64,000 nt of DNA from an uncultured Chloroflexota bacterium. Its GTDB lineage: Bacteria; Chloroflexota; Anaerolineae; UBA4142; SHND01. The stretch covers positions 1 to 64,000 of the forward strand of contig CALMZO010000226.1 in the NCBI GenBank assembly GCA_937870825.1. The letters are read 5' to 3'. Positions within the stretch are counted from its first letter, which is position 1. Each line of letters begins with the position of its first letter. Position numbers and translations under genes: made by a program. The notes beneath the pieces were generated by a model, which saw only the letters and a program-made list of their open reading frames with translations, did no database searches and was not told the origin of the DNA. Positions 2,716-18,389 of this stretch are shown here, piece by piece.

Positions 2716-4590
2716 ATGTGTTTCAAAAATCTCCCCATCGAATTTGACGAAAAAGGACGCGCGCGTCTGATTGAAGGAGTGCGCGACCCGTACGCGTATC
2801 AAACAACCTCGTTGGCGGATAACGCCGACAAAGTGCAAGAACTGCTCGCGCGCAACGGCTTTATCAAAACGGTTGACTTTGATCCCGTGACGCGCGTTGC
2901 GGGCGCGCTTGCGTTCCACAGTGTCGTGGATTTGGAGAACCGCAAGGTGTTGGAAACCAATTCGATGGCGACGCTGTTTCGCGGCTATGAAGTCATTCTC
3001 AAAGGACGCGACCCGCGCGATGCCGCATTCATCAGCAGCCGCGCGTGCGGTGTGTGCGGCGGCGTTCATGCCACCACCTCTGCGCTCACGATGGAAATGG
3101 CATTTCCCGTCAAGCCGCCGCCGCTCGGCATCGCGGTACGCAATTTGATGCTCGCGCTCGAATTTTGGTACGACAATCCGCTGCATCTCTTTTTGCTCGC
3201 GGGTCCGGATTATTCTCAATCCATCGTGCAGACGACGAATGCCGGGGTTTGGGAACGCGCGCAGCGTACCGAAGCGCCGCACGCGCAAGTTCATGGCTAC
3301 AAGACCATCGGCGAAATCATGACCGACCTGAATCCGCTCACCGGCGCGCTGTATCTGGAAGGTTTGCAAATGACGCGCACCGCGCGCGAAGCGTACGTTG
3401 CGGTCGGCGGCAAGTATCCGCATCCCGAAACCGTCATTCCCGGCGGGATGAGTACGACTGTCACCATCACGACGTTCAACGAAATTTATTCGCGGCTCTC
3501 GCAGCTGTTTGACTATTGCAAAAAGACCGCGTTGATTTGGGATGACCTCGTGGAATTTTTCTATGATGTGAATCCCGAATACAAAAAAGTGGGCGCGCGT
3601 CCCGCGAATTTGATTGACCCCGGCATTTGGGATGACCCGTTCGCATACGATGCCTCGTACGAAAACTGCAACGAGTGGGGCGAACGGCGTTGGGCGACGC
3701 CGGGCGTCATCGTGAATGGCGAACTCGTGACGACGAAACTGCAGGCGCTGAACATCGGCATCGAAGAATTTATCGAACACTCGTATTATGACCAATGGGA
3801 CAACAAACGTTTTGATACCGACCCGTCGGGCAATCCGTTGAGTCCGTACCACATGTGGAACAAGGACACCAAGCCGCATCCGTCGGGACAAAATTGGCGC
3901 GAAAAGTATTCGTGGTCCACGTCGCCGCGTTGGGACCGCAAAGCGATGGAGTCGGAATGTGTGGCGCGTTTATGGACGACCGGAGTGGCAAAGGTAATTC
4001 CGCATCGCCGCTTTATCGAACCCACCGGGCATGGCGTGAAACTGCACGTGCCAATGAGCACGCTGCCCGCGATGGATTTGGAATGGCAAGTGCCGGCGGT
4101 GTGGAACGCGTTCGAGCGCAATCGCGGGCGCGCGTATCATCTCGTCTATACCACGTGCGTTGCCTTTGACAATTGGCTCATCGGATTCGACCTTTTGAAA
4201 AAAGGGCACACCGAAATTCACACCAAGTTTGAAGTGCCGCGCAAAGGGCTGCACATCGGCGCGGGCTTTTGGGGCGCGGGGCGCGGCTATCTCACCCACC
4301 ATGCGACGATTGACAACGGCGCGCTTTCCAATTATCAAATTCTCACGCCCTCGACGTGGAACGCGAGTCCGCGCGATCCGTGGGGCAATCCCGGTCCGTA
4401 CGAAGAAGCGGTCCTCAATACCCCCATCCTCGAAGAATTTTCCAGCCCCGAAAACTATAAAGGCGTTGACATTCTCCGTACCATTCGCTCCTTTGACCCG
4501 TGCATGCCCTGTACCACGCACATTCACGTTGACGGTACCGACCATGTCGTCTTGCGCGAAGTGAACACGTGCGCGTGTGGAATTGAATAA
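2716..4590 (+). CDS. [NiFe]-hydrogenase large (catalytic) subunit, group 1-like
   Basis: This 624-residue protein is the NiFe-active-site subunit that splits or forms H2. The L1 motif is RACGVCGGVHAT with Cys111, Cys114 and His118; the L2 motif is DPCMPCTTH with Cys596, Cys599 and His602. Together these are the four Ni ligands plus supporting residues. An upstream 'FDPVTRVAGALAFHS' motif is also typical. A 22-residue tail containing 'NTCACG' follows His602; in most families the segment after this His is removed by the maturation endopeptidase. Linkage to NifU/Rieske and Hyp genes resembles aerobic H2-oxidising clusters of the 1h type, but the subgroup is inference. The partner small subunit is not present in the window, which is unusual because the two are normally adjacent. 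Confidence 0.93.
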   Translation: MCFKNLPIEFDEKGRARLIEGVRDPYAYQTTSLADNADKVQELLARNGFIKTVDFDPVTRVAGALAFHSVVDLENRKVLETNSMATLFRGYEVILKGRDPRDAAFISSRACGVCGGVHATTSALTMEMAFPVKPPPLGIAVRNLMLALEFWYDNPLHLFLLAGPDYSQSIVQTTNAGVWERAQRTEAPHAQVHGYKTIGEIMTDLNPLTGALYLEGLQMTRTAREAYVAVGGKYPHPETVIPGGMSTTVTITTFNEIYSRLSQLFDYCKKTALIWDDLVEFFYDVNPEYKKVGARPANLIDPGIWDDPFAYDASYENCNEWGERRWATPGVIVNGELVTTKLQALNIGIEEFIEHSYYDQWDNKRFDTDPSGNPLSPYHMWNKDTKPHPSGQNWREKYSWSTSPRWDRKAMESECVARLWTTGVAKVIPHRRFIEPTGHGVKLHVPMSTLPAMDLEWQVPAVWNAFERNRGRAYHLVYTTCVAFDNWLIGFDLLKKGHTEIHTKFEVPRKGLHIGAGFWGAGRGYLTHHATIDNGALSNYQILTPSTWNASPRDPWGNPGPYEEAVLNTPILEEFSSPENYKGVDILRTIRSFDPCMPCTTHIHVDGTDHVVLREVNTCACGIE

Positions 4591-4677: not shown

Positions 4678-5175
4678 ATGCGCGTCTTGATTGCGGGTGT
4701 GGGCTATCACAACCTGAGCGACCTTTCTTTTGGTCCGCACATGGTCAATGAATTGCGCGCGTTAGAGTGGCGCAACGGCGTCGAGATTGACGACTGGAGT
4801 TTCGGACCCATCGCCGTCACGCAGCGTTTGCAAGACCGTCCGGGTTATTATGACCGCATCATTTTTATTTCGGCAGTCCAGCGCGGGCGAGAGGCGGGCG
4901 CGCTGGGTGTATACTGTTGGAACGGCGCATTGCCGGACGCGGCAGAAATACAACGCCGTATCGGCGAAGCTGTGATGGGTGTCATTAGTCTGGACAATTT
5001 GTTGATAGTGACCACGCATTTTCGCGCGCTGCCCAAAGATGTGATTGTGATAGAAGTGGAACCGGAAAATTTGGAATTTGGCGAAGCGTTCACCCCGCGC
5101 GTGCAGGCAGCAATTCCCAAAGTGAGCGAGCTGGCGCGCGCATATGCTACGAGTGGCACGGACAGCAAAGCATGA
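4678..5175 (+). CDS. hydrogenase maturation endopeptidase-like protein, probably catalytically dead
   Basis: This 165-residue protein has the fold signature of HyaD/HycI peptidases: N-terminal 'RVLIAGVGYHNLSDLSFGP', central 'IIFISAVQRG', and C-terminal 'VEPENLEFGEAFTP', the last matching the usual 'PE-LEFG--L-P' segment. The acidic Ni-binding positions are changed: the first motif has Asp-Leu-Ser instead of Asp-Asp/Glu, and the second has Ser where Asp is expected. It lies 87 bases after the large subunit, and its stop overlaps the next start (ATGA at 5172-5175). A canonical endopeptidase follows two genes later, so this copy may act as a chaperone or assembly factor. That role is inference. 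Confidence 0.7.
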   Translation: MRVLIAGVGYHNLSDLSFGPHMVNELRALEWRNGVEIDDWSFGPIAVTQRLQDRPGYYDRIIFISAVQRGREAGALGVYCWNGALPDAAEIQRRIGEAVMGVISLDNLLIVTTHFRALPKDVIVIEVEPENLEFGEAFTPRVQAAIPKVSELARAYATSGTDSKA

Positions 5176-6107
5176 GTGACAAGCCAATTGAACTAGCGCC
5201 AGCCGACGCGCCGCTAACGATACAGGAATTTCAAGACACGCTCGCGCGCCTCGACGCGCTTGTGCGCGAATTTGATGCCCTGCCGTTTCCCGAAGTGCGC
5301 GACCAGGTGTTCGAAATGCTCCAAGTCATTGACACGATTCATCGCCTCAGTTTGGGACAATTGTTGGAATCCATTCATCAGCAGGGACACATTGACGTTG
5401 TGCTGCGCGCCGCCCACGACCCTATCATCAACACCCTGCTTCAGTTGTACGATTTTCTGCCCACCGATGACCGCACCCAAGTGGAAACCGCACTGGAACA
5501 AATTCGTCCGTACATTCATTCGCACGGCGGCGCGGTCGAGGTCCTGGACGTTGTTGAAGGAATTGTTCATCTCAAACTGACCGGACACTGTTACGGCTGC
5601 GCGGGTTCGACGCAAACCTTGACGCGCGGAATTGAAGCCGTACTGCGCGAAGCGTACCTCGCCTTTCGCGGCATCGAGGTTCACGACGCCGCACCGCAAA
5701 TCACGCACGCGGCACCGGGGTTTATCGCCCTCGACGAAATACCCACATTAAAGCCGCGCGAACTGCGCCGTCCCGTCTTTCAAGACATTGCGCCCGCACA
5801 AGAATTATTGCCAAATACATTTCAGGTGTTTGACGTGGACGGCGTGCGCGCACTCGTCGCCAACATTGGCGGAGAATTTTTTGCCGTGCGAAATCGTTGC
5901 CCCGGCAGCGCCGCGCCGCTCGACCTCGGCAGTTTCCAACCGCCGATTATTGTTTGCCCCTGGCACAACGAAGCGTTCGACCTTCGCACGGGCAAACGCA
6001 GCGACGGCGAAGCGGGTCCGAATTTACAAGTGCTGCCCGTCGCAGTGCGCGAGGGCATGATTCAAATCGCAGTGAACACCACTGCCGATGCACCAATCGC
6101 CGCATGA
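5172..6107 (+). CDS. NifU-C / Rieske fusion protein with an altered Rieske motif
   Basis: This 311-residue protein has three parts. An N-terminal helical region (1-95) has no recognised domain. A NifU C-terminal-like domain (about 100-170) has the Fe-S scaffold pair Cys140-x2-Cys143 (GHCYGCAGS). A Rieske domain (about 205-300) is expected to hold a 2Fe-2S cluster with motifs C-x-H and C-x2-H. The second motif is intact (Cys262-PW-His265), but the first reads Cys243-Pro-Gly245, so one His ligand is missing. Fusions or pairs of NifU and Rieske proteins are familiar in aerobic H2-uptake clusters, where electron transfer or cluster delivery is supposed. The stop overlaps the next ATG at 6104. Confidence 0.85.
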   Translation: MSDKPIELAPADAPLTIQEFQDTLARLDALVREFDALPFPEVRDQVFEMLQVIDTIHRLSLGQLLESIHQQGHIDVVLRAAHDPIINTLLQLYDFLPTDDRTQVETALEQIRPYIHSHGGAVEVLDVVEGIVHLKLTGHCYGCAGSTQTLTRGIEAVLREAYLAFRGIEVHDAAPQITHAAPGFIALDEIPTLKPRELRRPVFQDIAPAQELLPNTFQVFDVDGVRALVANIGGEFFAVRNRCPGSAAPLDLGSFQPPIIVCPWHNEAFDLRTGKRSDGEAGPNLQVLPVAVREGMIQIAVNTTADAPIAA

Positions 6108-6616
6108 AGAACATGTTGATTGCAGGGATGGGCAATGTGCTGCGGCGCGATGACGGTTTCGGCGTCGAAATCGCGAAACGGCTCATGGCGGAAAATCATT
6201 TCCCGTCGAACGTCAAAATCATCGAAGTTGGCATCGGCGGCATTCATCTTGTTCAGGAATTGATGCACGGTTACGACGCGTTGATTGTCGTTGATGCGCT
6301 CGAACGCGGCAGTGCGCCCGGTACCCTGCACGTCTTGGAAGCGAACGTACCGAATCTAAAAGAATGGGACGCGGACACGCGCGGCGATTTTCTGGCGGAC
6401 ATGCACTATACAACGCCGGGCAAAGCAATGATTTTGTCCAAAGCATTGGACGTACTGCCGCCGTGCGTCTATCTCGTCGGTGTGCAGCCGCTCGACGCAA
6501 GCGAACTCGGCATCGGTTTGAGCGAACCCGTCGCCCGCGCGATTCCGCAAACCCTGCGCGCCGTCGAACGTATCGTGCAGCAGATTGAATGGCAGGAGCA
6601 CGTGTATGAGCAGTAA
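6104..6616 (+). CDS. hydrogenase maturation endopeptidase (HyaD/HycI family)
   Basis: This 170-residue protein cuts the C-terminal extension of the NiFe large subunit after nickel insertion. It has the canonical motif GMGNVLRRDDGFG (residues 8-20), a second acidic position at Asp64 (VVDALE) and a His at 101 (DMHYTTP), matching the three metal-contact sites of the family. The start at 6104 is chosen because it gives the family N-terminus MLIAGMGN and overlaps the previous stop. It overlaps the next gene by 11 bases. It is presumably the working protease for the large subunit encoded at 2716, since the paralogue at 4678 lacks key residues. Confidence 0.9.
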   Translation: MKNMLIAGMGNVLRRDDGFGVEIAKRLMAENHFPSNVKIIEVGIGGIHLVQELMHGYDALIVVDALERGSAPGTLHVLEANVPNLKEWDADTRGDFLADMHYTTPGKAMILSKALDVLPPCVYLVGVQPLDASELGIGLSEPVARAIPQTLRAVERIVQQIEWQEHVYEQ

Positions 6617-7007
6617 TTCGCGTGACGGAAACGGCAACGGCAATGGATATTCCGCGCTGGACGCGATTTTTTGGCGCGACGAAATTTTGCAGGTCATGTT
6701 TTGGATGCGGGGTGAAGGATTGGGCGATTCTTGCACCGCCGAAGCATTGGCATCGTTCCTAAACACGAACGCAACCGCGTTGCGCGCGCACCTTCAAGAG
6801 ATGGTCCGCGAAAAATATCTCAAGCGCAAAGGTGACGAATACATGTTGACGGAACATGGACGCATGGAGGGCGGCAGATTGTTCATGCAAGAATTTTCAG
6901 GGCTTACGAATCAAGCGCACGGCGAATGCAACAATCCGAATTGCGCCTGCAAAACACAAGGACCTGCCGCGTGTGCGTCACGCACGCACGTTCACGCGGA
7001 CAAGTGA
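6606..7007 (+). CDS. winged-helix protein with Cys/His-rich C-terminal tail
   Basis: This 133-residue protein has a low-complexity Gly/Asn leader, then a winged-helix-like region (about 20-95) with 'TAEALASFLNTNATALRAHLQEMVREKYLKRK' character (helix-turn-helix followed by a wing). Its tail is HGECNNPNCAC...CASRTHVH, holding five Cys and three His. The tail could bind nickel, zinc or an Fe-S cluster. The start is taken at 6606 within the end of the protease gene. Proteins of this kind occur beside group 1h-type hydrogenases, but no function is established; it might be a regulator or a metallochaperone. The next gene begins 20 bases downstream. Confidence 0.72.
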   Translation: MSSNSRDGNGNGNGYSALDAIFWRDEILQVMFWMRGEGLGDSCTAEALASFLNTNATALRAHLQEMVREKYLKRKGDEYMLTEHGRMEGGRLFMQEFSGLTNQAHGECNNPNCACKTQGPAACASRTHVHADK

Positions 7008-7027
7008 GACGTGGAACGCAAAGAGAA

Positions 7028-9361
7028 ATGGTGATAGAAACTGTGCTGCCGCTGGAATTGAAACTCGAACGCCGCCGCATCCATGTGCAAGGAATCGTGC
7101 AAGGCGTCGGCTTTCGCCCGTTTGTGTTTCATCTCGCCGAACGTTTCGGCATCAGCGGCTGGGTGTTGAACAACGCGGCCGGTGTCATTATCGAAGCCGA
7201 GGGCAATGCGGACGCGCTCGATAATTTTGAAAACACGCTGCGGAACGACGCGCCGCCGCTCGCGCACGTCGCACACATTTCGAGCGAATGGCTGCCCGCG
7301 TTGGGCGAGCGCACGTTTCGCATTGTGCCGAGCACCAACAATGAACAAAAGCGCGCGTGGATTTCCCCCGACGCGTCCGTTTGCGACGACTGCTTGCGCG
7401 AACTGTTTGACCCCAACAATCGGCGCTATCGGTATCCGTTCATCAATTGCACAAGCTGTGGTCCGCGTTTTACGATTGTTCAAGATGTACCGTATGACCG
7501 TCTCTACACCACGATGGCGGAATTTCCAATGTGCGCGGACTGTCAGCGCGAGTACGACGACCCGCGTGACCGCCGCTTTCATGCACAGCCGAACGCGTGC
7601 GCCAGGTGTGGACCGCAGGTTCGACTTGAGACGAATGACGAAAGACGAAAGACAACCGACACACCAATCGAACAAGTCGCGGAACTATTCTTTGAAGGAA
7701 AAATTGTTGCCGTCAAGGGACTGGGCGGGTATCACCTTGCGTGCGATGCGATGAATGACGAGGCAGTCGCAAAACTGCGCGCGCGCAAACGCCGTAACGA
7801 AAAACCGTTTGCGTTGATGGTGCGCGATTTGGAAACTGCGCGCGCGTTGTGTGAAATCAATCAGGCAGAAGAAAAATTATTGACCTCGCGTCGTCGTCCC
7901 ATCGTCCTCTTGCGCGCGCACAAAACATCACGCGTCTCTCCACACGTTGCGCCCAAACAAAACACGCTCGGCATCATGCTCCCGTACACGCCGCTCCATC
8001 ATCTCCTTTTGGAAAAGTCTCCGCCCGCATTGGTGATGACGAGCGGAAACGTGAGCGACGAACCCATCGCGTTTCGCGATGACGAGGCGCGCGAACGTTT
8101 ATCGGACATTGCGGACGCGTTTCTTACGCACAATCGCGTCATCCACATGCGCTGCGATGATTCGGTGACGCGCGTGGTGAATGTAGGCGCGTTGCATGAA
8201 ATGCCGCTGCGTCGTTCGCGCGGCGCTGTGCCCGAACCGCTGCGCGCGCCGCAAAGATTGCACACGCCGATTCTCGCCGTCGGCGCGCATCTGAAAAATA
8301 CCTTTTGCCTGGCAAAAGACGATTACGCGTTTGTCAGTCACCACATCGGCGATTTGGAAAATTACGAAACACTGCTATCGTTCACACACGGCATCGAACA
8401 TTTCAAAAAATTATTTGACCTCGAACCGCGCATCATCGCCTACGACCTGCACCCCGAATACCTTTCGACAAAATACGCGCTCGAACAATGTGCCATGCGC
8501 CATTTGCAATTTGCGATGCCTGTTCAGCATCATCACGCGCACATTGCAAGCGTGATGGGCGAACACGGCATCACCGAACGCGTGATTGGTGTTGCGTTCG
8601 ACGGAACCGGTTACGGCACGGACGGCACGCTTTGGGGCGGCGAATTTCTAATCGCCGATCTGAAATCGTTCGAGCGCGCGGCGCACCTCGATACGATTCC
8701 GCTCATCGGCGGCGAGCAAGCAATTCACGAGGTATGGCGGCTGGCGGCGGCGTGGCTCGATAAAATTTATGGCGATGATTTTTTGGATTTGGAAATTGAT
8801 TTTGTGAAACGTTTGGAGCGCGCGAAATGGCGTGTGATGAAACAGATGCTCGCCAACAATGTAAACACACCGCGCACATCGGCGATGGGGCGTTTGTTCG
8901 ACGCGGTGGCGGCATTAATTGGCGTGCGCGATATTGCAACGTACGAAGCGCAGGCGGCGATTGAATTGGAAATGCTCGCCGATGAAAATTGCGTCCAAGA
9001 ATATCCCTTTGAAATTTCAAACGCGCGCCCGCGCCTTTTGAAAATGGACGCGACATGCCGCGCCATCGTACACGATTTGCAGAACGGCATTTCACAAAAC
9101 AGCATCGCCGCGAAATTTCACAATACCATTGCATCATGCATCGCGCGCACGTGCGAATTGCTGCGCGCGGAAACCGAACTCGAACGCGTTGTTCTCGGCG
9201 GCGGTGTGTTTCAAAACACGCGGTTGCTGCAGCAAACGGGTCGGGCATTGCGCGCGAAAAATTTTCAAACGTACGTGCCGACAAAACTACCGCCGAACGA
9301 CGGCGGCATTTCGTTTGGTCAAGCCCTCGTCGCCAACGCGCAGCGGCTTGCCGCCGACTGA
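7028..9361 (+). CDS. hypF: HypF, carbamoyltransferase for NiFe cyanide ligand synthesis
   Basis: This 777-residue protein converts carbamoyl phosphate to carbamoyl-adenylate and transfers it to HypE. Domains in order are: acylphosphatase (about 15-105, GIVQGVGFRPF); paired zinc fingers (about 118-195, CDDC, CTSCGP, CADC, CARCGP); YrdC-like (about 210-390); and a Kae1-like C-terminal half with HHHAH and FDGTGYGTDGTLWGGE. The start at 7028 is selected over an upstream in-frame ATG because it gives the normal N-terminus. A purine-rich simple repeat (7628-7655, GACGAAAGACGAAAG) is inserted in frame between the zinc-finger and YrdC domains, encoding a non-conserved polar stretch. Length is normal for HypF. 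Confidence 0.96.
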   Translation: MVIETVLPLELKLERRRIHVQGIVQGVGFRPFVFHLAERFGISGWVLNNAAGVIIEAEGNADALDNFENTLRNDAPPLAHVAHISSEWLPALGERTFRIVPSTNNEQKRAWISPDASVCDDCLRELFDPNNRRYRYPFINCTSCGPRFTIVQDVPYDRLYTTMAEFPMCADCQREYDDPRDRRFHAQPNACARCGPQVRLETNDERRKTTDTPIEQVAELFFEGKIVAVKGLGGYHLACDAMNDEAVAKLRARKRRNEKPFALMVRDLETARALCEINQAEEKLLTSRRRPIVLLRAHKTSRVSPHVAPKQNTLGIMLPYTPLHHLLLEKSPPALVMTSGNVSDEPIAFRDDEARERLSDIADAFLTHNRVIHMRCDDSVTRVVNVGALHEMPLRRSRGAVPEPLRAPQRLHTPILAVGAHLKNTFCLAKDDYAFVSHHIGDLENYETLLSFTHGIEHFKKLFDLEPRIIAYDLHPEYLSTKYALEQCAMRHLQFAMPVQHHHAHIASVMGEHGITERVIGVAFDGTGYGTDGTLWGGEFLIADLKSFERAAHLDTIPLIGGEQAIHEVWRLAAAWLDKIYGDDFLDLEIDFVKRLERAKWRVMKQMLANNVNTPRTSAMGRLFDAVAALIGVRDIATYEAQAAIELEMLADENCVQEYPFEISNARPRLLKMDATCRAIVHDLQNGISQNSIAAKFHNTIASCIARTCELLRAETELERVVLGGGVFQNTRLLQQTGRALRAKNFQTYVPTKLPPNDGGISFGQALVANAQRLAAD

Positions 9362-9383: not shown

Positions 9384-9671
9384 ATGTGTCTCGGAATTCC
9401 CGGTAAAATTGTCGAAATCGTGGACGCGGAAAAATTCATCGCCAAAGCCGATGTGTCAGGCGTCAAACGAAATATCAATGTGGGCTTGCTCAAACCGGAC
9501 GAAGCGCGCGTGGGCGAATGGGTGTTGATTCACGTCGGGTTCGCGTTGAGTCGCATTGACGAACAAGAAGCGCAAGAGACGTTTGCGTTTCTCAAAGGCA
9601 TGGGGCAGCAGTTGGATGATGAAATACGGGCAATGGAAGAAAGTGCGCGGTTGAGGTCGTTTGAGACATAG
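9384..9671 (+). CDS. hypC: HypC, NiFe cofactor chaperone
   Basis: This 95-residue protein starts MCLGIPGKIVEI, with the essential N-terminal Cys2 of HypC/HybG that carries the Fe(CN)2CO unit together with HypD. The mid-region 'VGEWVLIHVGFALSRIDEQEA' is also family-typical. A CGGAG ribosome-binding site lies seven bases before the ATG, 20 bases after hypF. It chaperones the iron fragment to the large subunit. A tandem repeat array directly follows the stop. Confidence 0.96.
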   Translation: MCLGIPGKIVEIVDAEKFIAKADVSGVKRNINVGLLKPDEARVGEWVLIHVGFALSRIDEQEAQETFAFLKGMGQQLDDEIRAMEESARLRSFET

Positions 9672-9731
9672 GGCGTGAAACGTCAAACGGGAAACGTCAA
9701 ACGGGAAACGTCAAACGGGAAACGGGAAACG
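9672..9731. repeat. purine-rich tandem repeat, about 14-bp period
   Basis: Three to four copies of a unit close to ACGTCAAACGGGAA, followed by degenerate ACGGGAA units, fill the gap between hypC and the first SIS gene. An in-frame ATG inside the array would extend the SIS protein with a repeat-encoded peptide; I reject that start. Confidence 0.85.
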
Positions 9732-9737
9732 TACACT

Positions 9738-10367
9738 ATGGTGAGTACCCTATCCGATTTTCGCGAATTGGTTGTAGCGCAATTTCATGACAGCATCGAG
9801 ACGCCGCCGCGTTTTTTTCAAGACAACGCAGACTTGATTGCTCGATGCAGTTTTGAAATGGCGCGCCGCTTTCAACGCGGGGGGCGCTTGCTCGTGTTTG
9901 GCAGTGGCGCATCAACGACGGACGCACAGCACGTTGCGGTGGAATTTGTGCATCCCGTCATCGTCGGCAAACGCGCGCTGCCTTCGATGGCGCTGACGAA
10001 CGACATTGGTTCGGTGTTGGGGCTGATGCAGAGTGCGGGCGCGGACGAAATTTTTGCAAGGCAATTGCAGCTCCTTGGCATGCGCGACGACATTGCGATG
10101 GGTTTGACAACCGATGGCGGCGACGAAAAGGTGTTGCGCGCACTGGATATTGCGCGTGAAATGGAAATGTTGACGATTGGAATGTGCGGCGACGCGGCGG
10201 ACAACTCGCGTCATGCTCGCAGTATGTTTGAGACGTCATTGGATTTTTGTTTCCGCGTTCCATCGAACAATCCGTACGTGATTCAAGAGGTGCAAGAAAC
10301 GACGTACCACATTTTGTGGGAAACGGTGCATGTGTTTTTTGAACAGCAAGTCGCAAATGGCAGATAG
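9738..10367 (+). CDS. SIS-domain sugar-phosphate isomerase-like protein, first of two in the hyp cluster
   Basis: This 209-residue protein has a SIS fold: 'RLLVFGSGASTTDAQHVAVEF' (about 48-68) resembles the GNGGSA-DAQH phosphosugar loop of GmhA, and 'YVIQEVQETTYHILWETVH' closes the C-terminus. GmhA-like isomerases act on sedoheptulose 7-phosphate, but SIS genes inside hyp operons are recurrent and probably have another, unassigned role. The Gly-Asn of the loop is Gly-Ser here, and later 'TTDGGDEKVL' replaces the usual STSGNS, so this copy looks less canonical than the one at 10733. The start at 9738 lies after the repeat array. Confidence 0.82.
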   Translation: MVSTLSDFRELVVAQFHDSIETPPRFFQDNADLIARCSFEMARRFQRGGRLLVFGSGASTTDAQHVAVEFVHPVIVGKRALPSMALTNDIGSVLGLMQSAGADEIFARQLQLLGMRDDIAMGLTTDGGDEKVLRALDIAREMEMLTIGMCGDAADNSRHARSMFETSLDFCFRVPSNNPYVIQEVQETTYHILWETVHVFFEQQVANGR

Positions 10368-10395: not shown

Positions 10396-10656
10396 ATGGA
10401 AAATTTTATTCCTTTGAGACCGAAAAAGATTTTTTCCGAACCGCATTTTTCTTGTCCGACCTGCAAGGACGAAGGACTGCCCGCGCGCGTGTTGGAAATT
10501 GACGCGGCGACAAACATGGCGCGCGCACAGCTGAACGACGGCGAAGCGGAAATCGCGCTCGACTTGCTCGACGATGTGCGCGTCGGCGATATTGTGTTGG
10601 TGCATCTTGATATCGCGATTGCGAAATTGAATCCGCGCGATATTGTAGAGCTGTGA
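10396..10656 (+). CDS. HypC-like protein lacking the N-terminal cysteine
   Basis: This 86-residue protein has the HypC beta-barrel pattern ('LPARVLEIDAATNMARAQL' then 'VRVGDIVLVHLDIAIAKLNPRDIVEL'). It carries a 20-residue N-terminal extension with CPTC instead of starting Met-Cys. The catalytic Cys2 of HypC is therefore absent, and a CxxC pair might replace it. It sits between two SIS genes, downstream of a canonical hypC. It may be a specialised chaperone for the same hydrogenase, or may act with the SIS proteins. The family resemblance is clear but the function is inference. Confidence 0.75.
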   Translation: MENFIPLRPKKIFSEPHFSCPTCKDEGLPARVLEIDAATNMARAQLNDGEAEIALDLLDDVRVGDIVLVHLDIAIAKLNPRDIVEL

Positions 10657-10732: not shown

Positions 10733-11443
10733 ATGTCTGATTTTTCAAAACGTTTTTATCCGTTTTTGCATGAACAAGAATCCGTCTCGCTTGCCCAAGT
10801 TCTGGCGGATGTGAAAACGTCAACCTTGAAAAAATGCGCGGACGTGGTGGAATTGCGCGCGCGCGTCGTGGAACAATACGCGGATGAAATCGTGCGCTGC
10901 GCGCAAGTCATGGCGCGCGCGTTTGTGGCGGGCAAGAAATTGTTGGCATTCGGCAACGGCGGCAGCGCGACGGACGCACAAGATATCGCAGTGGATTGTA
11001 CGTTGCGCGGATTGCCCGCGCTTTCGCTCACGAATGATATTGGCGTTGTGACCGCCGTGGGCAATGATGTGGGTTTTGAAAATGTGTTTTTGCGTCAGGT
11101 CATCGCGTTCGGCAGCGCGGGCGATATTGCCTTTGGGATTTCGACGAGCGGCAATTCGCGCAATGTCGAAATGGCGTTCGAGCAAGCGCACAAAATGGGA
11201 CTCGCCACGATTGGGCTCGCGGGCTATGACGGCGGCAAGACGGGCGAACTGTATCGCGCGGGCACTGTAGATTTTTGTTTTACCGCGCCTTCGACCTACG
11301 TGCCGCGCATTCAAGAAGCGCACGCGACGATTTATCACACGTTGATTGAATTGACGTTGCAAATGACGGAGGACGGACGACAAAAGTCCAAAGAGTTCCA
11401 TTCGTCTGCCGTCTATCGTCCTCGGTCGGAGTTTGTAAAATGA
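10733..11443 (+). CDS. SIS-domain sugar-phosphate isomerase-like protein, second copy
   Basis: This 236-residue protein has an intact GmhA-type loop 'LAFGNGGSATDAQDIAVD' (about 75-92) and second loop 'FGISTSGNSRNVEMAF'. The C-terminus 'YVPRIQEAHATIYHTLIELT' matches the family helix. An N-terminal extension of about 30 residues precedes the domain. It overlaps hypD by four bases (11440-11443), so it is translationally coupled to NiFe maturation. It is more canonical than the 9738 copy. The pair may form a heteromer with one active and one altered site, which is inference. Confidence 0.85.
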   Translation: MSDFSKRFYPFLHEQESVSLAQVLADVKTSTLKKCADVVELRARVVEQYADEIVRCAQVMARAFVAGKKLLAFGNGGSATDAQDIAVDCTLRGLPALSLTNDIGVVTAVGNDVGFENVFLRQVIAFGSAGDIAFGISTSGNSRNVEMAFEQAHKMGLATIGLAGYDGGKTGELYRAGTVDFCFTAPSTYVPRIQEAHATIYHTLIELTLQMTEDGRQKSKEFHSSAVYRPRSEFVK

Positions 11444-12591
11444 AATTTGTTGACGAATATCGCGACGCAGACCTTGCGAAAAAATTGTCGGAAGAAATCG
11501 CGCGGGTGAGTCAAGGACGCCCGCTGAAAATTATGGAAGTGTGCGGCGGACACACGCATACGATTTACAAGTACGGCATCGAAGATGTTTTGCCGCCGAA
11601 CATTGATTTGATTCACGGACCCGGCTGCCCCGTTTGTGTGATTCCGATGGGGCGCATTGACGACGCGCACGCGATTGCGCGCGAACCCGATGTGATTTTT
11701 ACCACGTTCGGCGACATGATGCGCGTACCCGGTTCGCGCGGCGCTCTGCTGGATGCCAAAGCAGAAGGCGCGGACGTGCGCTTTGTGTATTCGCCGCTCG
11801 ACGCGTTGAAACTCGCGAAACTGAATCCTGACAAACGTGTGGTGTTTTTCGCGATTGGTTTCGAGACGACCGCGCCTTCGACGGCGTTGACGCTGCTGCG
11901 CGCGCAAGCCGAAGACGTAAAAAATTTTTCCGTCTTTTGCAATCACGTCAACATTCTGCCCGCCATCAAAGCGCTGCTCGATTCGCCCGATTTGCGGCTC
12001 GACGGGTTCGTCGGACCCGGACACGTCAGCACGATTATTGGGTGCGAGCCGTACCGTTTTATTCCCGAAAAATACGGCAAGCCCGTCGTGATGAGCGGCT
12101 TTGAACCGCTCGACGTCATTCAAGCCATCTATATGCTCGTCAAGCAAATCGCCCAAGAACGCCGCCAAGTGGAAAATCAGTATTCGCGTGTGGTGCGTTG
12201 GGAAGGCAACCTCAAAGCGTTGGAAATCCTCGCGCGCGTGTTTGAACTGCGCCCCTTTTTTGAATGGCGCGGTTTGGGTTTCATCAATCACAGCGCAATG
12301 AAATTGCGCGGCGAGTTCGCGGCGTGGGATGCAGAATTGTTGTTCGATGTGCCCGGCTTGCGCGTCGCCGACCCCAAAGCGTGTCAATGCGGCGAAGTGT
12401 TGAAAGGCGTTATCAAACCGTGGGAGTGCAAAGTATTTGGCACCGCGTGTACGCCCGAAACGCCGATTGGAACGTGCATGGTTTCAAGCGAAGGCGCGTG
12501 CGCGGCATATTATAACTATGGACGCTTTTCCATCGCGTCGCAGCGACGCGCGCTCGTCGCGGAACAAGCGCCGGAAATGCGCGTCCATTGA
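11440..12591 (+). CDS. hypD: HypD, Fe(CN)2CO assembly protein
   Basis: This 383-residue iron-sulfur protein forms the scaffold with HypC on which cyanide and CO are attached to iron. Visible motifs are CGGHTHTIYKYGI (around residue 36), GPGCPVCVIP (around 66-75), GPGHVSTIIG, and a C-terminal cysteine cluster (CQCG, WECKVFGTACTPE, GTCMVSSEGAC) that ligates the 4Fe-4S cluster. All conserved cysteines I can place are present. The start overlaps the SIS gene. Length is normal. Confidence 0.97.
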   Translation: MKFVDEYRDADLAKKLSEEIARVSQGRPLKIMEVCGGHTHTIYKYGIEDVLPPNIDLIHGPGCPVCVIPMGRIDDAHAIAREPDVIFTTFGDMMRVPGSRGALLDAKAEGADVRFVYSPLDALKLAKLNPDKRVVFFAIGFETTAPSTALTLLRAQAEDVKNFSVFCNHVNILPAIKALLDSPDLRLDGFVGPGHVSTIIGCEPYRFIPEKYGKPVVMSGFEPLDVIQAIYMLVKQIAQERRQVENQYSRVVRWEGNLKALEILARVFELRPFFEWRGLGFINHSAMKLRGEFAAWDAELLFDVPGLRVADPKACQCGEVLKGVIKPWECKVFGTACTPETPIGTCMVSSEGACAAYYNYGRFSIASQRRALVAEQAPEMRVH

Positions 12592-12606: not shown

Positions 12607-13107
12607 ATGTCTCTTTTGAAAACCTTTGAACGTCTCGACCGCCAAATTGTCCACACGATGGCAAAATACGGCATCACGCTGCTGCGCCTCACGCTCGCGC
12701 TGGTCTTTGTTTGGTTCGGCGCGCTCAAAGTGATTGGCGCAAGTCCCGTCACCGATTTGGTTGCCAGCACTCTGCCGTTTCTCTCTCCACAAATCAGCGT
12801 GCCGTTGATTGGCGTGGTCGAAGTTGTGATTGGCCTCGGACTTGCCACGCGCATCGCGCTGCGGCTTGTGCTGTTGTTGTTTTTTCTGCAAATGGCGGGA
12901 ACGTTTCTCGTATTTGTGCTGCAGCCGAATCAATCCTTTCAAAATGGAAACCCGCTTCTCTTGACCGTGACGGGCGAATTTGTTTTGAAAAATTTTGTCT
13001 TGCTCACCGCAGGATTCGTCATCGGCTCGACGGTGCGCCGCCCCACCGAACGGCTGCCCGAAAGTACGCATCAAGACCCTGCGCGTAAAGCGGCAGAACC
13101 AAAATGA
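12607..13107 (+). CDS. DoxX/DUF417-like four-helix membrane protein inside the hyp operon
   Basis: This 166-residue protein has about four hydrophobic helices (roughly 20-45, 58-82, 85-108, 118-145) and starts with 'ITLLRLTLALVFVWFGALKVIG', typical of DoxX/DUF417 (YkgB-like) proteins. These are poorly understood membrane proteins linked to quinone or redox stress. It lies 15 bases after hypD and overlaps hypE by ATGA. Membership of the maturation operon suggests a membrane or quinone link for the hydrogenase, but no partner can be proven. Confidence 0.75.
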   Translation: MSLLKTFERLDRQIVHTMAKYGITLLRLTLALVFVWFGALKVIGASPVTDLVASTLPFLSPQISVPLIGVVEVVIGLGLATRIALRLVLLLFFLQMAGTFLVFVLQPNQSFQNGNPLLLTVTGEFVLKNFVLLTAGFVIGSTVRRPTERLPESTHQDPARKAAEPK

Positions 13108-14192
13108 GCACACGCTTTTCGACGGACGCTGTGCTCGCGCAATTTGAAAAAATCGAATTGGTGCAGCAGCAGCGCGCGCGCTTGCAAGACACACAGATTA
13201 CGCTCTCACATGGCAGCGGCGGCAAAGCGACGCACAATTTGATTCAAGCCTTGTTCGCCGACGCGTTCGCCAATCCGCTGCTTGATCAACTCGATGATGG
13301 CGCGGTGTTTGACGTGAACGGCGCGCGGCTCGCATTCACTACCGATTCGTACGTCGTCAACCCGATTTTTTTCGCGGGCGGCGACATCGGCGAACTCGCA
13401 GTGAACGGCACGGTGAACGATTTGGCAATGTGCGGCGCGACACCGCTTTTTCTTTCGGCAGGATTCATTCTCGAAGAAGGATTTTCGATGGACGATTTGG
13501 CGCGCATCGTACGTTCGATGGCGCGCGCGGCGGAACGCGCGGGTGTAAAAATTGTGACGGGTGATACCAAAGTCGTCCATCGCAACAAGGCGGACAAAAT
13601 TTTTATCAACACGGCGGGCGTTGGCGTCATCACGCGCGACGTGAGCCTTTCCGCGTCGAACGCGCGCGCGGGCGACAAAATTATTTTGAGCGGCAGCATC
13701 GGCGACCACGGCGTCACAATTCTCGCGGCGCGCGGCGAACTCGAACTCGAAGGCGATTTCTCCAGTGATACCGCGCCGTTGAATGATTTGGTGGAAACGA
13801 TGTTGAATGTGACGACCGAGATTCGCTGCTTGAAAGACCCGACGCGCGGCGGCGTGGCGACATCCTTGAATGAGATTGCCAAAGCGGCGGGCGTGACAAT
13901 GGCGATTGACGAGCGCGCGATTCCCGTGCGCGCAGAGGTACGCGGCGCATGTGAAATTTTGGGCATTGACCCGTTGTATATTGCGAACGAAGGAAAATTA
14001 CTCGCGGTTGTGCCGTCGAATTGCGCGGATGAAATTGTGAACGCGATGCGCGCGCATCCGTTGGGACGCGATGCCCGCGTGATTGGTCAGGTATGGGCGG
14101 AACCGAAAGGACTTGTTTTTTTGCAAACGCAGATTGGCGGCAATCGCGTGGTGGACATGTTGGTGGGCGACCCACTGCCGAGAATTTGTTGA
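13104..14192 (+). CDS. hypE: HypE, thiocarbamate dehydratase
   Basis: This 362-residue protein accepts the carbamoyl group from HypF on its C-terminal cysteine and dehydrates it to cyanide using ATP. The AIR-synthase-type N-terminal motif 'LSHGSGGKATHNLI' is present, as is the diagnostic C-terminus PRIC with the terminal Cys. Metal/ATP segments 'TTDSYVVNPIFF' and 'LKDPTRGGVATSLNE' are intact. The N-terminus is about 20 residues longer than the shortest family members. It is the last recognised gene of the hyp run. Confidence 0.97.
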   Translation: MSTRFSTDAVLAQFEKIELVQQQRARLQDTQITLSHGSGGKATHNLIQALFADAFANPLLDQLDDGAVFDVNGARLAFTTDSYVVNPIFFAGGDIGELAVNGTVNDLAMCGATPLFLSAGFILEEGFSMDDLARIVRSMARAAERAGVKIVTGDTKVVHRNKADKIFINTAGVGVITRDVSLSASNARAGDKIILSGSIGDHGVTILAARGELELEGDFSSDTAPLNDLVETMLNVTTEIRCLKDPTRGGVATSLNEIAKAAGVTMAIDERAIPVRAEVRGACEILGIDPLYIANEGKLLAVVPSNCADEIVNAMRAHPLGRDARVIGQVWAEPKGLVFLQTQIGGNRVVDMLVGDPLPRIC

Positions 14193-14834: not shown

Positions 14835-15608
14835 ATGAAAATTGCAGTGTCGGGTAAAGGCGGTTCAGGCAAAACAACGCTCACAGGAATGCTTGCGCGC
14901 ATTATGGCGCGAAGCGGACATCGCGTATTGGCGATTGATGCCGACCCGAATCCCAATATGGCAATGGCGATGGGCGTCCCGCGCGAGCGCGCCGAAACCT
15001 TGAGTGTGATTCCCCGCGACATGGCGCATTGGGAAGAAGATGACAACGGACAGCCGTTTGTGAAATTGCAAAAACCACTCGCGCAAATTGCCGCCGAGTA
15101 CGGCGTCACTGCGCCCGATGGAATTCGCCTGCTCGTCACCGGACAAATCACCGAAGCCGGGGCGGGGTGCATGTGTCAGCCGCACACGATTGCGCGCGGG
15201 TTGATGGCGAACGTTGGCGATTGGGCAGACTTTATCTTGACGGACATGGAAGCGGGGTTGGAGCATTTGAGCCGCGGCACAACCGAACACGCCGATGTGA
15301 TGCTTGTCGTCGTCGAACCGTACTATCGTTCGCTCGACACCGGCGCACGCGCGGCGGGTTTAGCACGGGCGTTAGGGATTCCAAATATCTTTTTTGTCGC
15401 CAACAAGCTGCGCACCGAGACCGAACGCCAAGCCGTTAAAGAACTCGCCGATAAAAAAGGGATTGAACTGATTGCCCTCATCCCGCATGACGAAGGTTTT
15501 CCCGAAGCCGACCGTCTCGGACTTGCGCCGCTCGATTTTGCCCCCGATTCTCCCGCCGTTCAAGAAATCGCGCGGCTCGCGCAAAAGTTGGAAGCGCGCG
15601 CAGCGTAA
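14835..15608 (+). CDS. CooC-type nickel-insertion ATPase (Cys-X-Cys form)
   Basis: This 257-residue P-loop ATPase of the MinD/ParA/CooC group has a deviant Walker A 'SGKGGSGKTTLTG' (6-18) with the signature Lys. It also has 'LAIDADPNPNMAMAMG', 'TDMEAGLEHLSRG' and the nucleotide-base motif 'VANKLR'. Cys112-Met-Cys114 (GAGCMCQPH) is the dimer-interface Ni/Zn site known from CooC1 of carbon monoxide dehydrogenase systems. It presumably loads nickel into a CODH or related enzyme; no CODH gene lies in the window. GAGGAG precedes the start at a suitable distance. A paralogue follows at 15725. Confidence 0.9.
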   Translation: MKIAVSGKGGSGKTTLTGMLARIMARSGHRVLAIDADPNPNMAMAMGVPRERAETLSVIPRDMAHWEEDDNGQPFVKLQKPLAQIAAEYGVTAPDGIRLLVTGQITEAGAGCMCQPHTIARGLMANVGDWADFILTDMEAGLEHLSRGTTEHADVMLVVVEPYYRSLDTGARAAGLARALGIPNIFFVANKLRTETERQAVKELADKKGIELIALIPHDEGFPEADRLGLAPLDFAPDSPAVQEIARLAQKLEARAA

Positions 15609-15724: not shown

Positions 15725-16609
15725 ATGAAGATAGGTGTATCCGGCAAAGGCGGCGTCGGTAAAACAACCACCTCTGCAACACTCGCACGCATTTTCGCCG
15801 CGCGCGGGTATGATGTTTTGGCGATTGATGGGGACCCCAACCCCAACATGGCGTTATCGCTCGGCTTTTCGCCCGATGTCGCAAACGCGATGCAGCCAAT
15901 GCCGCGCCGCGCCTTTGCCAAGGACGCCGAAAAAACATTTTCGGCAGACGAAATTCTCGGAACGTATAGCGTACAAGGTCCACAAAATATCGCGCTTGTG
16001 CTGGGCGCGAAAATCGAACACGCGGCGAGTGGCTGAACCTGAGGAAATCATGCCACCGTGCGTGGCTTGATTGCCGAGCTGGTCAGCTCGCGCCACCAGA
16101 TTACAGTGACAGATATGGAAGCCGGTCTCGAACACCTTTCGCGTTCGGGCGGCACGCTGCGGCATGTGGACCAATTGTTCATCATTACCGAAATGGACCG
16201 CAAGGCGTCCGAAACCGCGCGCCGTACATTCCACCTCGCGCAAGAGCTCGGCGTTGCGCGTGTCGCACTCATCGGAAATAAATTGCGCGACGCGAACGAC
16301 CACAACGATTTGGAAAAATTTGCCGCCGGGCTCGGCATCGAAATTGCCGCCGCGATTGCTTTCGACGAAGATGCCCATCAAGCCGACCGGCGCGGCATTG
16401 CGCTGTACGATTACGCGCCCCATTCGACGACTGTGCGTGCGCTCGAGCAGGTGGTCTCCAAACTCGAACACGAGTTTGAGCTCGTGCCGGCTCATCAACC
16501 GATAACTTCCGTTGCCGCGCCTGCGTTGTCTCTAGCGGCGGACGGGTCAAGCATTCTCGAAGGTTTGACGCCCAAAGAAATCAAAAAACGCTTCCCGGAG
16601 TGCGACTGA
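15725..16609 (+). CDS. CooC-type ATPase with two in-frame UGA codons at the Cys-X-Cys site: candidate double selenoprotein
   Basis: Read through, this is a 294-residue paralogue of the 14835 product: P-loop 'SGKGGVGKTTTSA', 'LAIDGDPNPNMALSLG', 'TDMEAGLEHLSRSGG', 'IGNKLRD'. Codons 104 (16034-16036) and 106 (16040-16042) are TGA in the same frame. Alignment gives SG-U-T-U-GNHATVRGL against AG-C-M-C-QPHTIARGL, so both stops fall exactly on the metal-binding cysteines. The 188 codons after them are open and conserved. A perfect-arm hairpin follows (16046-16072). Other genes here use TGA as a normal stop (for example hypE and 5172-6107), so a changed code is unlikely. The alternative is a pseudogene with two coincident mutations. 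A C-terminal region unlike the paralogue ends PECD. Confidence 0.75.
16046..16072 (+). promoter_or_regulatory. candidate bacterial SECIS hairpin
   Basis: AATCA-T-GCCAC pairs with GTGGC-T-TGATT around a five-base loop CGTGC. The lower stem is 5 bp, then a U-U mismatch, then a 5-bp upper stem; the loop has G in its second position and contains GU. The loop begins 15 bases after the second TGA and 21 after the first, in or near the spacing usual for bacterial SECIS elements. The hairpin is inside the reading frame, as expected for bacteria. Confidence 0.65.
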
Positions 16610-16650: not shown

Positions 16651-16787
16651 GCCTTTGCCGGGAAAATGACGCGTATCGTGCGCGTCCGGTCCGGGTCTGA
16701 GAGGATGTGCCCCATTCCGCGTCGGGGCAAATATGTGATGCGCTGATTCAACGACTACGCCAGCTTCATTCCAATGGAGGAGAGAAG

Positions 16788-18389
16788 ATGAAACGCATAT
16801 TTGTTCCGTTTGCGTTGTTGGCATTCGTACTTGTCATTGCTGCCTGTGCTCCTGCGGCACAACCCACTGTTGTTCTCCCGACCGCCGCACCAACGTCCGC
16901 GCCACCAACTGCAATCCCTGCCACTGCCACCATTGCCGCTACTGCACCGCCGCCTGTTTTGCCGACCACCGCGCCAACTCCGGGCGCCCAACCCACTTCC
17001 GCTCCTTCCGGTCAAATCAAACGCGGCGGCACGATTGTTGTCGGCGTGACCACTGACCCCGGCAATTTCAATACCGGAATTACCACTGCCGGCGGAACGC
17101 ATGCGGTTGCAGACAATCTTTACAACGGGCTCTTGCAATTTGACGAACAACTGAATCCGCAGCCGTCACTCGCGCAAAGTTGGGACATTTCTCCCGACGG
17201 GAAAACGTACACGTTTCATCTGGAAAAAGGCGTGACGTGGCACGACGGCAAGCCCTTTACCTCCGCCGATGTCAAATTCACATTCGAAAACATACTGCTA
17301 AAATTCCATTCGCGCACGAAAGCGGGTTTGGAAAATGTTCTCGAAGCGATTGAAACGCCCGATGACAGTACGGTCGTTTTCAAATTCAAAAATCCGTACG
17401 CCCCGCTCTTGCGCCGCCTGGATGTGGTCGAAGCATCCATTCTCCCCAAACATCTGTACGAAAATGAAGCCGACATCACCAAAGCCGCCGCGAATCTCAA
17501 TCCTGTCGGTACGGGTCCGTTCAAATTCAAAGAGTACGTCAAAGGCGACCACGTCGCGTTCGTCCGCAATGAAAATTACTGGAAAAAAGATTTGCCGTAT
17601 GTGGACCGGGTGATTTTCAAAATCATTCCCGACGCGGCGGCGCTCGATGCCGCGTTGGAAGCAGGCGAAGTAGATTACGCGGGCGGCGTGAACAGTGCAG
17701 ACATTGCGCGGCTAAAGGCGAATCCCGATGTGGTGCTGCGGCAAGCGCCCGGCGGTCCCGGCGGCTCGTTCTGTATTGATATGTTGATTTTCAACATGCG
17801 GAAATCGCCGTTCGACAAAAAACAAGTGCGCGAAGCCTTCGCGTACGGGATCAATCGCCAGCAAATTTTGGAACAGGTGATTTTCAATCAAGGACACGTG
17901 GCGACAGGTCCCATTTCCAGCACGATGGCGTGGGCATACAACCCCAACGTGCTGCCGCGCGCGTATGACACGAAAAAGGCAGCCGAACTGCTTGATGCGG
18001 CGGGTTACAAAGCGGGTGCTGATGGTAAGCGGCTCCGCGTCGCATTCGTTCACGCGACCGGTTTTGCCAAGCGCGGCGAAGTGATTCGTGAGAACATGGG
18101 CCAGGTTGGTGTTGAGGTGGAGCTCATTCCGCTTGAAGTGAATGCGGCGAATGAACGCGTGTTTATCAAGAACGATTTCGACCTCGGTATCGGCTCGTAC
18201 TGCAACGGACCCGACCCCGAAATCGGTGTAACACGCGCGTATGTTTCTTCGAACATCAAACCGATTCCGTTTTCGAACGGCGCGGCGTACAGCAATCCAA
18301 AAATTGACGAACTCTTTTTGAAAGCGGCAAGCACAGTGGAGACCTTTCTAAACGATTTCATTGTGCGCGACTCCCAAGAGCTTGTTTAA
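16788..18389 (+). CDS. family 5 solute-binding lipoprotein (peptide/nickel type), C-terminus truncated
   Basis: This 533-residue ABC-transporter binding protein is exported and lipid-anchored: signal helix 4-17, lipobox IAAC, then a Pro/Thr/Ala-rich linker to about residue 80. The SBP_bac_5 body follows ('LAQSWDISPDGKTYTFHLEKGVTWHDG', 'NPVGTGPFKFKEYVKGDHVAF', 'VREAFAYGINRQQI'). It stops soon after 'PKIDELFLKAAST' with an unrelated-looking end, about 50-60 residues short of the usual C-terminal lobe. The expected first permease gene is absent. GGAGGAGAG precedes the ATG at 16788. Ligand unknown; nickel is attractive next to CooC and Hyp genes but unproven. Confidence 0.85.
   Translation: MKRIFVPFALLAFVLVIAACAPAAQPTVVLPTAAPTSAPPTAIPATATIAATAPPPVLPTTAPTPGAQPTSAPSGQIKRGGTIVVGVTTDPGNFNTGITTAGGTHAVADNLYNGLLQFDEQLNPQPSLAQSWDISPDGKTYTFHLEKGVTWHDGKPFTSADVKFTFENILLKFHSRTKAGLENVLEAIETPDDSTVVFKFKNPYAPLLRRLDVVEASILPKHLYENEADITKAAANLNPVGTGPFKFKEYVKGDHVAFVRNENYWKKDLPYVDRVIFKIIPDAAALDAALEAGEVDYAGGVNSADIARLKANPDVVLRQAPGGPGGSFCIDMLIFNMRKSPFDKKQVREAFAYGINRQQILEQVIFNQGHVATGPISSTMAWAYNPNVLPRAYDTKKAAELLDAAGYKAGADGKRLRVAFVHATGFAKRGEVIRENMGQVGVEVELIPLEVNAANERVFIKNDFDLGIGSYCNGPDPEIGVTRAYVSSNIKPIPFSNGAAYSNPKIDELFLKAASTVETFLNDFIVRDSQELV

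Follow-up and report, generated by a model that had tools for sequence, protein, structure and literature searches.

A candidate nickel chaperone of the CooC family with two putative selenocysteine ligands, encoded beside a [NiFe]-hydrogenase

The window analyzed here, a stretch of 64,000 nucleotides from an uncultured Chloroflexota bacterium, contains two adjoining CooC-type ATPase genes on the forward strand. The first (14835–15608) has Cys112-Met-Cys114 at the columns where the second (15725–16609) has TGA codons, at codon 104 (16034–16036, aligned to Cys112 of CooC1) and codon 106 (16040–16042, aligned to Cys114). Is the second gene a damaged copy, or does it encode an ATPase with selenocysteine (Sec, U) at both positions? 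With TGA translated as U the frame is open and gives 294 residues on readthrough, 188 codons following codon 106 before a TGA stop. Inspection of the frame confirmed the in-frame TGAs and the open codons after them described in the initial annotation, together with the cysteine pair of the neighboring gene. Standard gene calling truncates such genes at UGA.

Among 60 related genomes, both TGAs are kept in G001, from the same genus, and in G019, from another family of the same order. The proteins of these three genes (UxU) are 73–78% identical, varying with the alignment, and no other disruption is scattered through them. Codon 104 is TGA in the three UxU genes and in all relatives of a second, UxC form; codon 106 is TGA in the UxU clade only and Cys in the UxC relatives. 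For codons 107–255, dN/dS in the three UxU pairs was 0.174/1.157, 0.221/1.371, and 0.212/1.732 (0.12–0.16), so selection acts on the protein encoded beyond the TGAs. These values, and the same double TGA in two other genomes, uphold the earlier judgment that chance decay is improbable. It is likewise improbable that the window's raw reads hold TGC or TGT at these codons, since two other assemblies carry the same TGAs. In the three inspected among weaker paralogue matches with reported stops (L021, L036, and L039), the stops fall beyond the C-terminus.

Both adjoining proteins belong to the Pfam class CbiA/MinD; neither the window protein nor two UxC relatives matched a specific model in NCBIfam 20.0. 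The best solved relative by profile is CooC1 (3KJE, E 3.3e-50), and the TGA columns are its Cys112 and Cys114. A predicted model with Cys substituted for Sec (mean pLDDT 87.2, pTM 0.82) also has CooC1 as its top fold match, with NifH-type iron proteins among the close folds. With CooC1 of Carboxydothermus hydrogenoformans (3KJE, 3KJG, 3KJH, 3KJI), the window protein shares the deviant Walker A motif GKGGVGKTT, the MinD-class fold, and the two interface ligand positions, and it falls within the CooC family. These conserved positions are Cys-X-Cys in CooC1, whereas here they are a putative Sec-X-Sec and in UxC relatives TGA and Cys. According to PMC6006190, the CooC1 cysteines bind Zn between two monomers, Ni competes for the site with a Kd of 0.4 µM, one nickel is bound per dimer, and ATP is hydrolyzed; the earlier equation of the aligned pair with the dimer-interface metal site (Zn/Ni) is borne out by the alignment and by this account. 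HypB, the GTPase that supplies nickel to [NiFe]-hydrogenase, belongs to another NTPase family and resembles the window protein only in the job proposed for it, and TIGR00073 (hypB) is absent from the NCBIfam matches of the protein up to E 0.001.

The client of CooC1, the maturation nickel ATPase of CO dehydrogenase, differs from what surrounds the window gene, which lies among hydrogenase genes, all on the forward strand. The cluster encodes a [NiFe]-hydrogenase large subunit, the likely client (2716–4590; PF00374; best solved relative 5AA5 HofG, E 4.4e-152), and two hydrogenase maturation proteases (4678–5175, TIGR00072 over cut-off; 5897–6616, PF01750, a frame given as listed, with the true start probably later). 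HypF (6926–9361, TIGR00143), HypC (9399–9671, TIGR00074), HypD (11440–12591, TIGR00075), and HypE (13104–14192, TIGR02124) all score over cut-off, and a second HypC-family protein (10396–10656) is over cut-off for PF01455 and below it for TIGR00074. Downstream of the CooC pair lies an ABC transporter solute-binding protein of family 5, of nickel or peptide type (16785–18389, PF00496), relatives of which recur next to Sec-CooC genes. We take the relative of HofG to be an actinobacterial type, or group 1h, hydrogenase, and this type is the best reading of the client. We did not identify a hydrogenase small subunit within the window. Across the 39 Sec-CooC loci recovered in the genome scan reported below, relatives of the hydrogenase cluster, or of the small subunit at L069, occur in 33, and in 30 of the 34 loci of at least 5 kb. 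This hydrogenase neighborhood was missed in the initial annotation.

Three further features of the cluster are noted. A small protein with a Cys-rich tail (6585–7007; HTH_Cys), which has no Pfam or NCBIfam match, recurs near Sec-CooC genes and is possibly a partner or regulator. The hydrogenase genes are followed by a fusion of NifU-like and Rieske domains (5172–6107), which recurs in other Sec-CooC loci. Two SIS-domain, GmhA-like proteins (9675–10367 and 10733–11443) lie between hypF and hypD, with relatives in a few other Sec-CooC loci.

The protein may be a genuine selenoprotein in which U-X-U or U-X-C does not carry nickel, serving instead as a redox centre (selenenylsulfide or diselenide) or as the holder of an Fe-S cluster, as in NifH-type relatives. 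PMC13188914 describes most known selenoproteins as thought to be redox proteins, and NifH-type proteins are among the close folds of our model. However, CooC1, the best relative by both sequence and fold, binds Zn and Ni through these two residues, and the genes around the ATPase belong to hydrogenase maturation. We consider a redox or Fe-S role unlikely.

Insertion of Sec by a bacterial ribosome depends on a signal in the mRNA, of which the SECIS element of E. coli fdhF is an example. A hairpin does follow the TGAs, as first noted, and we found that it covaries. The candidate SECIS core (16052–16066, forward strand) has a 5-bp stem and a 5-nt, GU-bearing loop; with the T of TGA104 numbered 0, bases 18–22 pair with bases 28–32 around the five-base loop. 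Pairing holds in 89.2% of cells over the 37 distinct sequences compared. Covariation links position 3 of codon 110 to position 1 of codon 114 (C-G 18, U-A 12), and position 1 of codon 111 to position 3 of Arg codon 113 (G-C 18, A-U 14), largely at synonymous sites. The covariation score was 0.362; shuffled alignments gave 0.196, with none of 500 reaching the observed value, and slid registers gave no more than 0.10; the number of pairs changed on both sides and the number of pair types were matched by 48 and 60 of 500 shuffles, respectively. In L073, L095, L103, and L109 pairing occurs in a shifted register only. Among the distinct sequences that passed the filter, all five pairs are present in 3 of 3 UxU, 22 of 28 UxC, and 0 of 22 CxC genes.

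The bSECIS rule given in PMC13188914 asks for a loop of 3–9 nt with G in its first two positions, at least 4 bp, an MFE of at most −7.5, and a distance of 16–37 nt from the UGA, and the same source states that some bSECIS elements fall outside it. An MFE within this limit was obtained for 41 of 42 sequences. For UGA104, with a spacing of 20 nt, the hairpin agrees with the rule, whereas UGA106, at 14 nt from the loop, falls just short, so that the suggested bSECIS check succeeds for the first codon and misses on spacing for the second. Compared with bacterial elements such as that of fdhF, the present case is distinguished by one hairpin for two UGAs one codon apart. The simplest reading is that one hairpin serves both UGAs. 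Another small hairpin (16073–16094, forward strand), kept in the three UxU genes, may assist at the second UGA, a weak signal given that only three sequences are involved. Its loop is GGUC in two of the three genes.

Could UGA104 alone be decoded as Sec, with UGA106 acting mostly as a stop that yields a truncated product or a selenium-dependent switch? The 14-nt spacing and the adjoining Cys paralogue would suit such an arrangement, but purifying selection acts on the codons beyond UGA106, all three species retain UGA106, and these genes share the second hairpin. We regard termination at UGA106 as quite improbable and retain readthrough of both codons as the preferred reading.

The machinery for Sec insertion is present in the assembly to which the window belongs, as a search proposed at the outset was to establish: selA (594.7 bits), selB (359.4), and selD (353.6) are over cut-off, and one tRNA-Sec lies above the Rfam cut-off and is also called by ARAGORN (anticodon tca). 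The assembly is 95.4% complete and 5.1% contaminated, and these genes are on contigs other than that of the window. The selD gene itself (L046, contig C139 of the window genome) has one in-frame TGA and would be a second selenoprotein gene there. In both G001 and G019, selB and tRNA-Sec score above cut-off; a selA gene was recovered from G019 and not from G001. Within the order selA is widespread (17 of 22 genomes), so finding it there carries little weight. More broadly, selB passes the cut-off in 29 of the 38 genomes with TGA-bearing CooC sites (leaving 9 below) vs. 2 of 14 named controls. In the G-set, 6 of 7 Sec-form and 1 of 3 related Cys-form genomes have selB over cut-off; for tRNA-Sec the numbers are 5 of 7 and 2 of 3, respectively, one of them barely (47.6 bits vs. 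47); the two sets overlap, with at least G001, G019, G451, G481, G507, and G586 in common.

How far does this form of CooC extend? A search of species genomes with the single window protein found no relative, and a DNA motif pattern was used instead. Scanning 84,980 species genomes for G-U-x-[U/C]-G-x-H-[AST]-[AT]-V-R returned 45 sites in 44 loci, of which 40 sites in 39 loci lie within CooC frames: 38 UxC and 2 UxU (from the G019 and G001 records). Five sites outside CooC frames (L079, L088, L096, L099, and L101) were dropped as chance matches. Among the sites kept, the forward-strand site of L105 has just 7 open codons upstream, L083 loses homology shortly past the motif, and L074, L092, and L109 are truncated by the ends of the available stretch. 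Going by record titles, the 39 loci, all in draft genomes, are distributed over Acidobacteria (12), Actinomycetota (11), Chloroflexi/Chloroflexota/Thermomicrobiaceae (9), and SAR324 (2), with one each in Verrucomicrobia, Armatimonadetes, Dormiibacterota, HR26, and HR28. A plasmid collection gave one distant match only.

Because the pattern requires the motif, variants like L071 escape the scan, which is also no test of alternation at the two positions; nor is the stem-count set, whose filter required C or U. Alternation was assessed on 17 genes from searches of the class and the phylum, with six candidates scored per genome. In 396 class genomes (E at most 1e-50), the double TGA occurred in the window genome, G001, and G019 only. 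In 400 phylum genomes we found five more relatives with one TGA, always at the first position (UxC), three Cys-x-Cys relatives, and the window's own Cys paralogue. Both positions are a TGA or a Cys codon in all 17 genes, the alternation anticipated in the initial annotation. What it had not seen is that the putative double-Sec form is part of a much wider family with a predicted single Sec (UxC).

This alternation would also be compatible with UGA being read as Cys or Trp through a changed code or a suppressor tRNA, and a Cys-inserting suppressor would suit the protein. Against recoding of that kind, TGA is an ordinary stop in this host, terminating 11 of the 17 cluster genes checked, 15725–16609 included; tRNA-Sec and selA, selB, and selD are present; and the covarying hairpin goes with TGA and not with Cys codons. 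We reject a changed code as highly improbable. Although the intact adjoining Cys paralogue could make loss tolerable, a decaying pseudogene or a sequencing error is rejected with near certainty on the same two TGAs in three assemblies, in genes that are otherwise undisrupted, the downstream dN/dS, the association of stem with TGA, and the TGA forms in several phyla. The selenoprotein interpretation of the double-TGA gene has held up in the computational checks.

A tree was built from 47 of the 56 genes of the stem-count set, with the TGA positions masked; one repeat (L092) and eight distantly related Cys genes were dropped. The UxU genes form one clade (100/100) beside L065, a UxC gene from another class (90/83, not starred). 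L067, L070, and L072, all Cys forms, are nested in a UxC clade, and two of their three genomes lack selB over cut-off. From these placements it is most likely that UxU arose from UxC, and Sec and Cys appear to have interchanged more than once. Two-gene loci were also observed: L105 has two CooC genes, both Sec forms, in opposite directions around 2974 (reverse) and 5283 (forward), and L114 has a Sec and a Cys form around 1158 and 2668, both forward, in the same direction as in the window. Such loci suggest paired Sec/Cys chaperones.

Nickel delivery to [NiFe]-hydrogenase is usually the task of HypB. Of the 22 genomes given, 6 have HypB over cut-off; G001, also a UxU genome, is one of these, and the window genome and G019 are not. 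The hydrogenase neighbors, with no HypB over cut-off in the window genome and G019, favor nickel delivery to hydrogenase. The gene thus probably encodes an ATP-dependent nickel chaperone with two Sec ligands, directed by the candidate SECIS element and serving the [NiFe]-hydrogenase of the same cluster. The ATPase would be translated through UGA104 and UGA106 as Sec by means of the hairpin at 16052–16066, SelB, and tRNA-Sec, and two selenolates would take the place of the Cys-X-Cys at the dimer interface. A homodimer could hold one metal ion, most likely Ni(II), coordinated by as many as four selenolates; the site would open and close as nucleotide is bound and hydrolyzed, and nickel would be handed to the hydrogenase. 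Selenium may provide tighter nickel binding and ligands that recover from oxidation.

Several observations weigh against this chaperone reading. PMC6006190 reports that the CooC of R. rubrum lacks tight nickel binding and plays no part in the maturation of that organism's CO-induced hydrogenase. In the window, nickel handling may fall to the adjoining Cys paralogue alone. A single hairpin has to serve two UGAs, the second too close to its loop by the published rule; the Sec genes lie outside the window contig in an assembly with contamination, selA was not found in G001, and 9 of 38 genomes are without selB over cut-off. HypB in G001 and the small subunit not identified in the window count on the same side. 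On the finer detail our judgment is evenly balanced: an Se4, all-selenolate nickel site in the UxU homodimer, or an S2Se2 heterodimer with the Cys paralogue, reached in steps, Cys-x-Cys giving way to Sec-x-Cys and then Sec-x-Sec, with a single SECIS for two UGAs.

We found no description of a selenium-containing CooC among the matches listed in the literature searched, a scope that leaves out most subscription papers and preprints. The 2026 table of 119 selenoprotein families (PMC13188914) has no CooC-type ATPase and no UxU motif, and a term search for "CooC" found it absent from PMC12013277 and PMC9312934; a text match in PMC5424206 was to "cooccur". The ATPase family is known; its selenoprotein form and the double-Sec metal site, as read from the genes, would be new. 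In NiFeSe hydrogenase, CobW-related proteins, HgcA, and MbdU, as listed in PMC13188914, Sec likewise occupies a proven or probable metal site, and a few families among the known metal-site selenoproteins have two Sec.

Sec is known mostly from redox enzymes, and here it is likely a metal ligand of a putative nickel chaperone. The Sec-CooC family is missing from the selenoprotein lists searched, though it occurs in several phyla beside hydrogenases. Its UxU form would offer a clean case of a single recoding signal for two UGAs one codon apart, and the natural series of CxC, UxC, and UxU would make the benefit of selenium to the metal site directly testable.
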